Assembly (NCBI GenBank): GCA_029907515.1
Contig: JARYLT010000015.1
Coordinates: 1 to 41,195 of the forward strand
Reading direction: 5' to 3'
Length of the DNA: 41,195 nt
Origin: Spirochaetota bacterium
GTDB lineage: Bacteria > Spirochaetota > UBA4802 > UB4802
Shown: piece after piece, positions 17,047 through 22,606 of the stretch
Layout: the number at the start of each line of letters is the position of its first letter
How positions within the stretch are numbered: the stretch's first letter is position 1
Translations under genes and position numbers: made by a program
The notes under the pieces: generated by a model
Databases searched by the model: none
The model's input: only the letters and a program-made list of their open reading frames with translations
What the model was told of the DNA's origin: nothing

Positions 17047-17950
17047 GTGCGTCCCAAAACCTATAAATTTCTTAAACATATACACGCACTTGCAAGCATG
17101 ACGAACGCTAGATAGTTTTCTGCCTTTACTTCATACCTGATTTTAAATCATCGAAACTTATTATGCCAGGCACCAGTCCGTTCTACTACCCACCTTCGAG
17201 TTTTTCTTCTTCCACGTTGTTTGGTAATTTTGTTTTCCTTCTTTCTGTTTTTTCTTTCGGGAATATGGACAATAAAGTATTTGCCTAAGAATTCTCTCGC
17301 CTCCTTCGAATCGTATCCTTTATCAAGGCAAATATGCTGTTCAACTTCTTTATGGGATGGCCCTTTGATAATACAGGATTTAAGACATTCTTTATACATT
17401 GTTATATCATGGACATCCGCACCGCTTAAGCTTAATCCAAGCGGAATACTGTTTCCATCAACGTAAATATGGCGTTTTGTACCATTTTTAGCCCTATCAG
17501 TGGGATTTTTACCTATTTTCTCTCCTTTCACTGGTGCCGCTACAGTCTGACTGTCAATCGCTTGCCATATCCAAATTATCCCTTTTTTTCATCATATTCA
17601 TGAACGATAATTTGCCAGAATTTTTGATTACACCAGCTTTTTCCCATTCTTGAAAATAGCGGTAGCACATTGAACCGCTCCCATATTCTTTTGGGACCAT
17701 CTTCCACTGACAGCCTGTTCGCAACATATAGAGAATACCATTCATTATTTTCCGAAGCTCAGCTCTTGGTCTTCCTCCTTTGGGCGATTTACTATAGTGG
17801 GGCAAGAATTTTTCGATTTTCTCCCATGCAATATCAGGTAATTCCTTTAATCCAGTCTTTTTCTTTGCTATTTCGTTCCATCCCTTTACTATGGTTACAT
17901 AGTAAAGATCTGCATTATGTCTCATTTCTTTAGTAGGTTTTGGGACGCAC
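17047..17950 (-). mobile_element. IS5-family insertion sequence (IS427-like), inactivated
   Basis: Perfect 17-bp terminal inverted repeats, GTGCGTCCCAAAACCTA at 17047-17063 and its exact complement at 17934-17950, bound a 904-bp element that carries one transposase in two frames on the minus strand. Outside the repeats TAAG occurs on both sides (17042-17045 and 17953-17956), a possible target duplication if the true ends lie one to two bases further out. Length, inverted repeats and transposase all fit a small IS5-type element. Confidence 0.85.
17061..17925 (-). pseudogene. IS5-family transposase, frameshifted and with a late stop
   Basis: The first frame, from the ATG at 17925, reads MRHNADLYYVT...LPHYSKSPKGGRPRAELRKI...GCQWKMVPKEYG, the usual IS5 N-terminal domain. 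At a run of seven A residues (plus-strand T run at about 17583-17589) the frame must shift to continue as IWIWQAIDSQTVAAPVKG, with the DSQT catalytic-Asp motif, then DKGYDS and RRWVVERT, the second and third DDE parts. Removing one A from the run would restore one frame. A further TGA at 17148-17150 interrupts the end, after which FKIRYEVKAENYLAFVML continues to the stop at 17061. IS5 relatives can use slippage at A-runs, but the late stop argues for decay. Confidence 0.8.
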
Positions 17951-18040: not shown

Positions 18041-18814
18041 TCAAGGAATCATATAAATTCTCATTTCAAAGTAACCAGATGAATAATAATTAACCATATG
18101 TGGTTCAACTTTAATAATAAGCGTATCAGAAGTAGTTAAAGATATAGAACTTGAAAAGTAATTGCCATCGACATTTACTAATTGTGATGAATTTAAATTA
18201 TTTTTATATGCAGAAACAACAATATCGGCATAATTATTATTGAAATTATATTCATAATCTATCCATTCAATCCGATAATTCTTATTTTCTGTAGGGTTAA
18301 ACTTAAACCATTTAATTTCATAAGAACTAATATGAAAAGTTCGATATGATAAAGTCAGCGAAGGGAGAGAATCTATAGTATAACAAGGTAAATCTATATT
18401 GTAAAGGACTGAAGATCCTATTTTTATTGTTTTTTCTATAGGTATATAATTTGGTGATTCTAAAATACAATTTAGAATGATAATATCACATTCAAAATCA
18501 TCATTATCTGAAATATCAAGCCTTATCATGTAAAAACCATTTTCATCTGTATTAACTGAGGTAGAATCTATTTCATAGCCAGCTTCATTAGAAGAAGTTG
18601 CTAAAATTGTAGCACCTTGGATAGTTATTCTAGTAATAGCATCATATACGTAACCCTCAATTATTGCTTTCCCACCTTTAGAATCTAGACCTTTAGCGGG
18701 ATCAAGGGGATTTGAATCAAATTCAGAATCTTCATATGAGCAAGAAATAATAAATAAAAAAATCATTATTAAAATATACATTTTTTTCATAATATGAATA
18801 TTTTTCTTTTCCAT
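18041..18814 (-). CDS. Lipoprotein with carboxypeptidase-regulatory-like and possible PPC-like domains
   Basis: The product has a lipobox at FIISC-S, about 25 residues after the ATG at 18814 or 17 after the one at 18790; neither has a strong ribosome site, and an open frame back to 18880 is judged spurious. After the acylated Cys comes an acidic linker (DSEFDSNPLDPAKG), then GGKAIIEGYVYDAITRITIQG with a later DENGFYMIRL, the pattern of a carboxypeptidase D-type regulatory/Ig-like domain. The C-terminal part (YEIKWFKFNPTENKNYRIEW ... DTLIIKVEP) resembles a bacterial PPC domain. It is the last gene of the minus-strand cluster starting at 22111, 86 bp after the preceding stop. Probably a surface or periplasmic binding protein; no catalytic motif seen. 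Confidence 0.72.
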   Translation of the reverse strand: MEKKNIHIMKKMYILIMIFLFIISCSYEDSEFDSNPLDPAKGLDSKGGKAIIEGYVYDAITRITIQGATILATSSNEAGYEIDSTSVNTDENGFYMIRLDISDNDDFECDIIILNCILESPNYIPIEKTIKIGSSVLYNIDLPCYTIDSLPSLTLSYRTFHISSYEIKWFKFNPTENKNYRIEWIDYEYNFNNNYADIVVSAYKNNLNSSQLVNVDGNYFSSSISLTTSDTLIIKVEPHMVNYYSSGYFEMRIYMIP

Positions 18815-18900
18815 ATAATCAACCCAGAATATTTTATTATTGTATTTAAGTAAAACTCCTATAACATAATACACATTCACATACTATATCAAATAATTAA

Positions 18901-20187
18901 TCACAAAAACGGTAAACAACAACTTTGTGAAGTACTTCTATACGTTACACCTAAATAGACCTGATGTCCATCCACGTTTATTTTATTTGTTCCTACAGGC
19001 GTATATCCAATATTATATTCCATAAAAAGACCAATGCTTTTAAAAAAAGCAATTTCCAAACCACAACCACCATAAACACCGCAAGAATAAAAGGTAACAT
19101 TAATTTCATCATTATCAAATCGCTTATCTTTAGCGGACTCATCATATATTTGGAACCTAACACCAAATGGGAAATATATATCAAATACAGTCATCAAAAA
19201 ATACATTCGATGGCGAATCCGCAAACCAATATCAAGGCCAAAAAGCAATGCAGTACTTTTATAAATTACATCATCGCCAATTTTACCAGTAGGATTTACT
19301 GAAGAATCACTCATAGTGAATTTCTTGAAAAATCCACGCAAGTATCCATCATAATAATCTTTATCACTCAGTTTCATATCCTCATCGCTAATGATCCAAT
19401 CATATAAGAAAGCATGTTGCACAGTAAAATATTTATTCATTTCATCATCCATAGTGCTATGGAATAATGACCATCCTATTCTAATCCCTGAATATCTACT
19501 AGTTAATTCTTTTTTTCGCTGTTCAGCTGCTTTTTCGGTACGCAAAAGAAAATCTTCTTCAATTTTTTCATATTCTTTTTCCTTCTTTAACATTTTTTCT
19601 TGATATTTTACTTCTTCTTCTTTCTTATACACTTTATCCATAAATTCTTTGACCTGGCCATCTTTTCCAGTCAGCAAGTAATACGCAAGGGCATTTACAC
19701 CTTCTTCAAAAAAATTGTCATACTGATATTTAATTGTTTTAATTTTGGTTACTTTTGGAATGCCATCAGCCCTGTCCATCAGACGCGCTGTAATATATAT
19801 ATATTCATTAGTTCTCCAAATACGTCCATAAATTATTATTTCGGCATTAGTTTTTTCCATAATTTTTCTTATACAAGCATCAGATGAACATTCCCCTAAT
19901 GTCATTTTCAATGATTCATGATCAAAAAAAACACCAATGTCATCATCCGTTATAATTGAATAATTGGCATCTTTTTGAAATGTTTCTTCCATTATTTCTT
20001 TTATACGTTTTTGTAAATAATTGCTCTTGCTCATATTTTCTATTTCAAATTCACGAACATAAATTTTTTTCGTAGAAGTTTTTTTTGATTTTTTCCCCCA
20101 CAAAAATGCATTTGCTGGATTACTAAATGAAAAGGAAAAAAATACCAGACTTATTGCTAATACAATATTTAAGCTTTGAATTTTCAT
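18901..20187 (-). CDS. Exported two-domain protein: CsgG/TolB-like N-terminus plus possible outer-membrane barrel (paralogue B)
   Basis: From the ATG at 20187 (AAAGGAAAG just upstream; a GTG at 20199 is less likely) the 428-residue product has a signal peptide ending near Ala27 (NPANA). Residues about 40-165 read as an alpha/beta domain with IITDDDIGVFF, a CSSDAC pair (Cys100, Cys105) and AEIIIYGRI, the pattern of CsgG/LpoB/TolB-N-like periplasmic domains. A charged, coiled-coil-prone segment spans about 170-235. The C-terminal ~190 residues alternate short hydrophobic strands with Gly/aromatic residues and end NVDGHQVYLGVTYR, suggesting a small outer-membrane-type barrel. It is a paralogue of the gene at 20225-21583. 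Function unknown. Confidence 0.7.
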   Translation of the reverse strand: MKIQSLNIVLAISLVFFSFSFSNPANAFLWGKKSKKTSTKKIYVREFEIENMSKSNYLQKRIKEIMEETFQKDANYSIITDDDIGVFFDHESLKMTLGECSSDACIRKIMEKTNAEIIIYGRIWRTNEYIYITARLMDRADGIPKVTKIKTIKYQYDNFFEEGVNALAYYLLTGKDGQVKEFMDKVYKKEEEVKYQEKMLKKEKEYEKIEEDFLLRTEKAAEQRKKELTSRYSGIRIGWSLFHSTMDDEMNKYFTVQHAFLYDWIISDEDMKLSDKDYYDGYLRGFFKKFTMSDSSVNPTGKIGDDVIYKSTALLFGLDIGLRIRHRMYFLMTVFDIYFPFGVRFQIYDESAKDKRFDNDEINVTFYSCGVYGGCGLEIAFFKSIGLFMEYNIGYTPVGTNKINVDGHQVYLGVTYRSTSQSCCLPFL

Positions 20188-20224
20188 CTTTCCTTTCACT
20201 CCAACCTGTAACTATAATAATTAC

Positions 20225-21583
20225 TTAAAAGAAACCAAAAATAGAACCACTTATATGATTTGTCCGGAACATTACTCCTACAAGTAACTGTATGCCATCA
20301 ATATTGACATCATTTTTACCTATCAAAGTATATCCACCCGAAATTTCACCAAAAAAACCCATATATCTGTTTAAAGTTACTTCCATCCCAACACCACAGG
20401 TATAGCCAAAAGAATTTAATAACTTACTGTATTTCTCACCGCCAGAAATGTATTTTTCTTCAACACGAACAAAACGACCTCCAAACATCGTATAAAAAGA
20501 CCACGCCTCCCATAAAAAATATGTAGAACCAACAAATCGAATACCTACATCACCGCCAACATGTGTCATTGTTAAATTATCTTCTGGAACAGGTGAATAT
20601 TTTCCTGCATAGTCATCATAATTACCTGGTGGAAGTAATTGCATTTCATTTTTAATTTTTGTATATGCATTTTCGTCTGCTATAAAATTTCTATAAAATA
20701 GACGAGAATATAAATCAATACCGTCACCAACCTCATCTTTATAACGATAAATGAAGATGTCAATAATGTAAGTAGTTAATTTAGTATAATATTTGTTATA
20801 GTTTTCATTTTGAAGATATGTAGTTTTATATTTGGATACGGGAAATCCACCATAACCTATTCGGAGAAAAGGAGAATGATTAAGACATGCCAATTTACTG
20901 TAGTATGCATCATTAATAGCCTGAAGTGTTCTTTCCCATTTTTTTTCAAACTTTTGCAATTCAAATTCTTTTTCTTCCATCCATTCTTCAAAATCTTTAA
21001 TGTAAGATTCTTTTCTAGTAACAAGATATTTTGCAAGTGCATGTGATGCTTCTTCTACATATCGTTCCCTTGGGATTTTAAGTGTTTTTCGGATACTGCC
21101 ACCATCTCTATACAATAATACTGCTTTAATTATAATTGTATCATTATATTCATTATACTTTTCCACAGTACCATAAATTATACAATCAGTATCAATTGCA
21201 CGCATTAGCTCCTTTGCACATACATCTTCGTTAGAGCAATTTCCAAATAACATTTTTTTCTCAACCTCTTTTCCAAGGCTTTTAACATCATCATCTGATA
21301 TTATGCTATAACCTTGAAATGTAACAATTGTTTCAGCTATATAATCTCTGATATCTTTACCTATATCATTAACACTCTCAACTATTTCTTCATTCTCTTC
21401 ACTATCACTTTTACTATTATTTTTTATATTAGAATTAAAATCTTTAGTTATAGTAAATGGTTTAATAAATATACTCTTTACTTCTGAATTCGAATATACA
21501 ACTGAATTTATGTTAAAAAAAAGTAACAACATAGAGAATAATAATATTATTATATTTTTATAGGACTTCATAATCATACCCAT
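20225..21583 (-). CDS. Exported two-domain protein: CsgG/TolB-like N-terminus plus possible outer-membrane barrel (paralogue A)
   Basis: A 452-residue paralogue of the next gene downstream. After a signal-like segment (residues 11-31) comes an Asp/Glu/Asn/Ser-rich linker (about 48-72). The domain YSIISDDDV ... GNCSNEDVC (Cys116, Cys122) ... CIIYGTV follows, then EASHALAKYLVTRKESY, a Glu/Lys coiled-coil-prone stretch at about 195-225, and a C-terminal region with barrel-like alternation ending NIDGIQLLVGVMFRT. The shared order with paralogue B (signal, DDD motif, Cys pair, I-Y-G, coiled coil, N-x-D-G ending) is clear even though overall identity is modest. The ATG at 21583 abuts the stop of the thioredoxin-like gene, so translation is probably coupled; ATGs at 21577 and 21571 are also possible. 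Confidence 0.7.
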   Translation of the reverse strand: MGMIMKSYKNIIILLFSMLLLFFNINSVVYSNSEVKSIFIKPFTITKDFNSNIKNNSKSDSEENEEIVESVNDIGKDIRDYIAETIVTFQGYSIISDDDVKSLGKEVEKKMLFGNCSNEDVCAKELMRAIDTDCIIYGTVEKYNEYNDTIIIKAVLLYRDGGSIRKTLKIPRERYVEEASHALAKYLVTRKESYIKDFEEWMEEKEFELQKFEKKWERTLQAINDAYYSKLACLNHSPFLRIGYGGFPVSKYKTTYLQNENYNKYYTKLTTYIIDIFIYRYKDEVGDGIDLYSRLFYRNFIADENAYTKIKNEMQLLPPGNYDDYAGKYSPVPEDNLTMTHVGGDVGIRFVGSTYFLWEAWSFYTMFGGRFVRVEEKYISGGEKYSKLLNSFGYTCGVGMEVTLNRYMGFFGEISGGYTLIGKNDVNIDGIQLLVGVMFRTNHISGSIFGFF

Positions 21584-22111
21584 TTATCTATATTTTTTTA
21601 CAATTTTTTCAATTTCATTAAAAGTACTATCATTAAAATTATCAAATATATATGAAATATTACCATTTTTATCAATTATTATTATTGTTGGATATTTTAT
21701 TATTTTATATTTGTTTATTACTTCAAGATATCTATCAACCAAAGGAACGAAATCAACTCCAATTTCGTTTATAAAATCTTTTATATCAGAGACAATATTT
21801 ACATCCTTTTTAAAAGAAGTTCCCACAAGATACACATCAAATACAGAATTGTATTTTGAATATAATTCATATAATTCTTTTATTTCTTTTTTACAATTTA
21901 CACATTCAGTAAAGAAAAAAGATAATATTATAGGCTTTTTTATATCCTGAAATGGTTTAACAAGTTCACCATTAGTGTTCCTTAGATTAAATATAGGTGC
22001 TGCTTGTCCTTTTTTAACTTGCGAATAAGACATAGAAAATGAAAGTATAGATATTGCCACAAAAACGGAATACATGTAAATTATTCTTTTAAAAATATTA
22101 AAGTTAAACAT
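21584..22111 (-). CDS. TlpA/AhpC-TSA-like exported thioredoxin-fold protein
   Basis: A 175-residue protein with an N-terminal hydrophobic anchor or signal (residues 10-30). A redoxin domain follows: GQAAPIFNLRNTNGELV (35-51), then FFTECVNCKKE with the CxxC pair Cys70/Cys73, and KYPTIIIIDKNG with the cis-Pro loop. This is the layout of TlpA/ResA-type membrane-tethered oxidoreductases that reduce or rearrange disulfides outside the inner membrane. It is the first gene of the cluster whose next two members both carry a paired Cys motif, so they are possible substrates (inference). AGGGAG lies before the ATG, at rather long spacing. Confidence 0.85.
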   Translation of the reverse strand: MFNFNIFKRIIYMYSVFVAISILSFSMSYSQVKKGQAAPIFNLRNTNGELVKPFQDIKKPIILSFFFTECVNCKKEIKELYELYSKYNSVFDVYLVGTSFKKDVNIVSDIKDFINEIGVDFVPLVDRYLEVINKYKIIKYPTIIIIDKNGNISYIFDNFNDSTFNEIEKIVKKYR

Positions 22112-22606
22112 ACAATAATGTGCTCCCTATTACTTATAAAAATTACAACAGAATAACTTTTCTAAAATATTTTACAATAATGTGTATCTTAAATAGTATA
22201 ATAATTATTTATTTACTTTGTCAATACTTTTTCCCTAATGTTATACAAGCAGGTTATGAATCAAATAGCCATATGAAAGAGTGTACCTTTAAGTTCTGTA
22301 AACATCTTATTACACTCTGTACAGTGGTACATTTTTATATTCTTATCCGTCCCCCACATCATACTGGGGGAATCTTGTGTTCCCTTGATCTTTCTTACCA
22401 TACAAAATACACTGGGAATTCTTACAAGCTTCTATACTTATATCAATGGTAGTATTTATAGCGGTCTTACCTATACCATTTATAGTTTTCTCCAGTGGTA
22501 TTATGATATCTGGAGGACATTAAATGTATATGTAAAATTAAGTTAATTTTTGATTGATAAAGGGCCCATAAAATTTCAGAAAGAGTGATAATAATTCATT
22601 GTCTAT
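22112..22606. other. Gene-free gap with two hairpins
   Basis: This 495-bp gap separates two minus-strand units. It holds a perfect 7-bp hairpin TCCCCCA/TGGGGGA (22350-22371, 8-base loop) and a CTCCAG/CTGGAG hairpin (22490-22515). The promoter of the thioredoxin-led cluster must lie near 22115-22250. The only longer open frame (plus strand) lacks a ribosome site and any family resemblance. Confidence 0.5.

Follow-up and report, generated by a model that had tools for sequence, protein, structure and literature searches.

In a 41,195-nt contig of a Spirochaetota bacterium (the window, which here means the whole stretch of DNA that was analysed), four adjacent minus-strand genes, referred to as TRX, P1, P2 and LP, may together specify an outer-membrane-anchored envoy of the LpoB/TolB type. 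From the sequences and the predicted folds, we propose that this envoy is doubled (P1 and P2), comes under thiol control by the thioredoxin-like TRX, has the lipoprotein LP as its partner and links the outer membrane with the periplasm, a reading to which we give a probability of about 45%. The cluster is built from known parts, and the set that they form, an N-domain, helix and barrel in two versions together with LP and TRX, appears to be undescribed.

Gene layout and predicted architecture of P1 and P2

The order and strand of the four ORFs are those that a sequence-only reading of the window had given. TRX (21584..22111, minus strand) ends in a stop codon (21584) that immediately adjoins the ATG of P1 (21583), and P1 (20225..21583, minus strand) is followed by P2 (18901..20199, minus strand) and LP (18041..18814, minus strand). 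With ATG starts at 20187 for P2, where it is the likely one, and at 18814 for LP, the gaps are 37 nt between P1 and P2 and 86 nt between P2 and LP, in line with the tight packing described earlier; the mechanically listed GTG starts, including the GTG at 18880 that is also open for LP, give gaps of 25 and 20 nt instead. Every product carries an export signal, as had been proposed, in the form of a signal-like N-terminus in TRX, P1 and P2 and a lipobox in LP. A promoter-like site upstream of TRX (TTGACA-18-TATACT, 11/12 positions, 22195..22224, minus strand) would fit a single transcript for TRX-P1-P2-LP, this being a consensus match only, of a kind that is cheap in AT-rich DNA, where many weaker ones are expected by chance.

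P1 and P2 are paralogues with 31% identity (E ~1e-27). Their AlphaFold models (mean pLDDT 79.5 for P1 and 78.8 for P2), which are not independent, as they come from overlapping eight-sequence alignments, and which at a pTM of ~0.5 leave the relative arrangement of the domains unfixed, have a common layout: an alpha/beta N-domain, one long helix and then eight strands. Hence, the two are alike in sequence and in model, as expected for the tandem paralogues of identical layout that had been described. The series of motifs noted before, namely a DDD motif, a Cys pair, I-Y-G and an N-x-D-G ending, was also found in both proteins, with the ending better written as N-x-[DE]-G. Both Cys, one Asp of the DDD motif, the Gly of I-Y-G and the N and G of the ending are invariant across 11 aligned relatives. 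The Cys pair lies within the N-domain in P1 (C116/C122, 21218..21238, minus strand) as in P2 (C104/C109, CSSDAC, 19873..19890, minus strand).

We then compared the predicted N-domains (residues ~34-189 of P1, after its signal, and ~43-177 of P2) with known folds. Foldseek searches of the PDB returned TolB (6e-08 for P2, 2.9e-06 for P1) and LpoB (2e-04 and 2.9e-04, respectively), together with GNA1162 for P2 and PelC for P1. Since the TolB alignments span both halves with a large rmsd, we regard LpoB and GNA1162 as the clearer matches. In a profile-profile comparison with hhalign, the N-domain aligned with CsgG relatives of the same class, most but not all of them above the Pfam cut-off for CsgG, at a probability of 98.4% (E 4.6e-15) and with the Cys pairs aligned. 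P1 and P2 themselves match no Pfam or NCBIfam family above cut-off and lie below the Pfam cut-offs for CsgG, LpoB, TolB_N and FlgO; a search of the PDB sequences with the family profile gave no credible relative, and searches of PHROGs and of a plasmid collection gave no match. The placement of the predicted N-domain in the CsgG/LpoB/TolB-N superfamily, which had been suggested before, is supported by its fold and by the profile link through CsgG-positive relatives, and not by a Pfam score. Its predicted fold is that of the superfamily of the TolB N-domain, CsgG, GNA1162 and FlgO, whereas the propeller of TolB and the pore of CsgG are absent from P1 and P2.

The helix that follows is single and charged in the models and has a length of 44-53 residues (P2 181-233, P1 192-235). 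A heptad test of these helices was not significant (p = 0.125 and 0.37), so the label of coiled coil given in the sequence-only reading should be dropped. The C-terminal ends (P1 236-442, P2 236-422) are eight-stranded in both models, most strands being of high confidence, and the alternation of hydrophobic strand faces (p = 0.003 for P2, 0.027 for P1) supports membrane barrels. The Foldseek matches of these domains in the PDB are OmpA, OmpX, Ail and NspA. The structure check of both paralogues therefore predicted the two features that had been anticipated, a CsgG-like fold at the N-terminus and a beta-barrel at the C-terminus, the latter supported as a putative OmpA/OmpX-like eight-stranded outer-membrane barrel.

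Two known proteins come close to this architecture. LpoB is an outer-membrane-anchored activator of PBP1B with a TolB-N-like fold (PMC7267771), and, like LpoB (PDB 4q6l, 4q6z), P1 and P2 would hold a TolB-N-like domain on a long linker away from the outer membrane; in LpoB the anchor is a lipid and the linker is disordered, whereas P1 and P2 would use an eight-stranded barrel and a helix, and have the Cys pair. OmpA likewise combines an eight-stranded barrel with a periplasmic domain, and it too binds a lipoprotein (RcsF), but its periplasmic domain is C-terminal and peptidoglycan-binding, while that of P1 and P2 is N-terminal and predicted to be CsgG-like. On the sequence evidence, the fusion of a CsgG-like domain to a barrel is not unique to this cluster. 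Elsewhere in the class, single chains combine a CsgG-like N-domain with a barrel-like C-terminus (L103:1-1229, L098, L106 and L107); the first of these exceeds the Pfam cut-offs for both CsgG and OMP_b-brl and lacks the Cys pair, and all four are unmatched by the P1/P2 barrel profile and form no tandem pair with LP. The earlier statement that no such system has been described is thus kept in part: none was found in a limited literature search, but CsgG-barrel fusions as such exist elsewhere in the class. The window's own genome contains eight further Pfam-CsgG matches, an expansion of this domain family in the organism.

The thioredoxin and its CsgG-like neighbours

TRX matches Pfam AhpC-TSA (7.5e-14) and ResA chains in the PDB (E 3e-12) and has CVNC as its CxxC (C70/C73, nt 21893-21904), which agrees with its description as an exported TlpA-like oxidoreductase; it falls below the NCBIfam ResA cut-off. 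It shares the fold family and the CxxC with the TlpA/ResA oxidoreductases, and its genomic partner is a CsgG-like gene. Among the 33 relatives found with the copy from genome G011, 10 lie within 3 kb of a CsgG-like N-domain gene on the same strand, against 0.06 expected from random placement, an expectation that ignores shared descent. These pairs span several families, with several architectures at the C-terminus, and there are two further pairs with weaker N-domains (L143, L144). A Cys pair was present in all the TRX-adjacent N-domains examined, as CxxxxC (CxxxxxC in P1); CsgG-like proteins whose genes lack TRX as a neighbour can have the pair too. In one locus (G022:C403), TRX is followed after 26 nt by an N-domain whose barrel-like end is of another kind and then by a lipoprotein, which is the arrangement of the window, TRX > CsgG-barrel > lipoprotein, with the barrel and the lipoprotein swapped. 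In the literature searched, we found no report of a TlpA-like thioredoxin beside Cys-pair CsgG-like domains.

Across the 46 class genomes, all of one order, TRX and full-length P relatives occur in five and five, an exact match that depends on the cut-off, as TRX relatives were found in 21 of the 46 at 1e-8 with another query. Because this match hinges on the E-value cut-off, the claim for TRX rests on gene adjacency.

The same Cys-pair N-domain was also seen in proteins of ~620-830 aa (L129, L130, L131, L132, L133, L134 and L136), each encoded next to a TlpA-like thioredoxin, whose C-termini, where read, resemble formylglycine-generating-enzyme or WD40 domains. In G011, ~450 nt without an evident gene lie between a P-like gene and TRX (L064 5631-6081).

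Conservation of the locus and its lipoprotein partners

Full-length P1/P2 relatives were found in 5 of the 46 class genomes and in none of the genomes outside the class among 393 sampled evenly from Spirochaetota. P1, P2 and LP stand in the same order in four genomes from three families of one class: that of the window (G000), G013, G021 (JAGODF01, MAG Go_SlDig_bin_460) and G022 (CALMJO01), with P1 split over two contigs in G022 and the G021 contig beginning inside P1. Upstream of P1 in G013 and G022 there is no TRX, the gene in this position reading, from its sequence, like a cyclic-nucleotide-binding protein, and in G021 the contig breaks inside P1, so that the upstream region falls outside it. 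The neighbourhood conservation looked for earlier therefore extends to P1-P2-LP across three families and leaves TRX outside the kept block; the four genes are not conserved as one block, and their unity as one functional system is not established, TRX being linked separately from P1-P2-LP. Three full-length relatives (G022:C597, G013:C15 and G013:C53) have neither TRX nor a lipoprotein alongside, and there are shorter genes in which this barrel follows a different N-terminus. In the window's own genome (L094 5723-8095), and also at L090-L093 and L072-L074, an N-terminus of the type LKDGSIIEGDIVKETD is fused to the same barrel; such genes are widespread, often in tandem, and usually lie near a lipoprotein of FecR-like look.

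Four sibling species keep RecG, a PPC-domain protein and a small lipoprotein-like gene of one flank and lack the TRX-P1-P2-LP cluster, which is therefore accessory. The G+C content of the four cluster genes (22-31%, against 36% for the window) would be compatible with gain by transfer, and loss of the cluster in the sibling species is a possible alternative. Just downstream of the cluster (17047..17950) lies an IS5-like element whose 15-bp inverted repeats (GTGCGTCCCAAAACC) are perfect. Its transposase is spread over two ORFs, and the break would be due to a programmed frameshift or to decay.

LP has a signal peptide with a lipobox (FLFIISC) whose Cys is invariant in four homologues, as its call as a lipoprotein had implied. 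The lipobox is followed by an acidic tether, NxLDPxKGxDxxG, with the conserved segment SNPLDPAKGLDSKG; all four homologues keep its N, L, D, P, G and D. The CarboxypepD_reg domain of LP is weak (sub-threshold in Pfam), and its C-terminal part is common only to G021. LP was found in four genomes only, always directly 3' of P2.

We also looked at lipoproteins beside the barrel genes in general. With P1-P2 taken as one unit, a lipoprotein starts ≤400 nt downstream of 11 of the 15 barrel units compared with 34 of 344 background ORFs (p ~8e-9), and of 13 of 28 when KDGSII-type barrels are included (p ~8e-7), figures obtained with a simple lipobox rule on crudely called ORFs, in which relatives are counted repeatedly and ~four independent families are represented. 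The partner lipoproteins form about four families, namely LP, a weakly Kelch-like family, the CAFGD group and LamG proteins. In the 12 residues that follow the Cys, these partners have a mean net charge of -2.9, compared with +0.1 in 34 other predicted lipoproteins (p ~4e-6). As the lipoprotein and tether tests were designed post hoc and count relatives repeatedly, we take them as leads. An array of LamG-domain lipoprotein genes beside two small barrel genes (L075 1-6981) looks like a duplication-driven expansion.

Proposed mechanism, alternatives and meaning

In the reading that we prefer, P1 and P2 would each insert an OmpA-like eight-stranded barrel into the outer membrane as an anchor. The helix would serve as a spacer of at most ~65-80 A and position the N-domain in the periplasm, where the LpoB/TolB-N-like domain would be the point of contact. 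The conserved Cys pair of this domain may form a disulfide, which the adjacent TRX would set or repair. P1 and P2 would probably act jointly, and LP would be their partner, possibly in direct contact with them and probably displayed at the surface by means of the acidic segment beside its lipid anchor. The likeliest role would be to sense or signal between the outer membrane and the periplasm, or else to form a tether to the cell wall or inner membrane. The repeated occurrence of TRX relatives beside CsgG-like domains suggests such a thiol-controlled outer membrane-periplasm link.

Alternatively, P1 and P2 could carry or hold LP at the surface, the N-domain capturing LP, the barrel escorting or partnering it and TRX keeping the thiol state of the client or of the N-domain. 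We consider this doubtful: the barrel-then-lipoprotein order recurs with four lipoprotein families, LamG-type modules included, but the lumen of an OmpA-type eight-stranded barrel is too narrow to admit a folded lipoprotein. The acidic segments after the Cys recall the negatively charged lipoprotein export signal of Bacteroidetes, whereas in Borrelia export to the surface is the default for lipoproteins and needs no signal of this kind (PMC5080379), and RcsF in E. coli is bound by the periplasmic part of OmpA, with no surface route through OmpA (PMC7553776). Display is attractive because no Slam is known in Spirochaetota and the surface-lipoprotein flippase is debated, including the disputed role of LptD (PMC7857515, PMC11784454). 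Slam also joins a periplasmic domain to a barrel and is encoded next to a lipoprotein, but it contains TPRs and is predicted to form a 14-stranded barrel (PMC7857515) where P1 and P2 have a CsgG-like domain and eight strands, which places them outside Slam.

An OmpA-like structural protein or adhesin with exposed loops, in which the N-domain serves only for anchoring to the cell wall and TRX and LP are unrelated passengers, would account for the resemblance of the barrel to OmpA, OmpX, Ail and NspA, for the separate linkage of TRX and of P1-P2-LP and for the solitary full-length relatives. It would not lead one to expect a P1-P2-LP order kept across three families or a TRX/CsgG-like adjacency far above chance, and we hold it to be unlikely. 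Secretion through a pore formed by the CsgG-like domain, as in curli export, is very improbable; the N-domain is a remote CsgG relative, but P1 and P2 have no Pfam CsgG score, a lipobox was looked for in both and found in neither, and the sole predicted barrel is a separate eight-stranded one, and on these grounds a curli-type channel was rejected.

The outer membrane-periplasm envoy that we prefer could be one form of something broader. It is conceivable, and we put it forward as speculation, that, throughout the class, CsgG/LpoB-like domains carry a CxxxxC switch under the control of a TlpA-like thioredoxin and sit on interchangeable ends, either outer-membrane barrels or large multidomain proteins. 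The barrel forms, with variable acidic-tether lipoproteins, would then make up a redox-controlled system for surface display or trans-envelope signalling, unrelated to Slam, Sus or Tol-Pal.

For the question of how spirochaetes link the outer membrane with the periplasm and bring lipoproteins to the surface, the cluster is a compact, testable set of parts. The pairing of a thioredoxin with Cys-pair CsgG-like domains recurs in many genera, and suggests that the domain used by LpoB, TolB and CsgG can come under thiol control.
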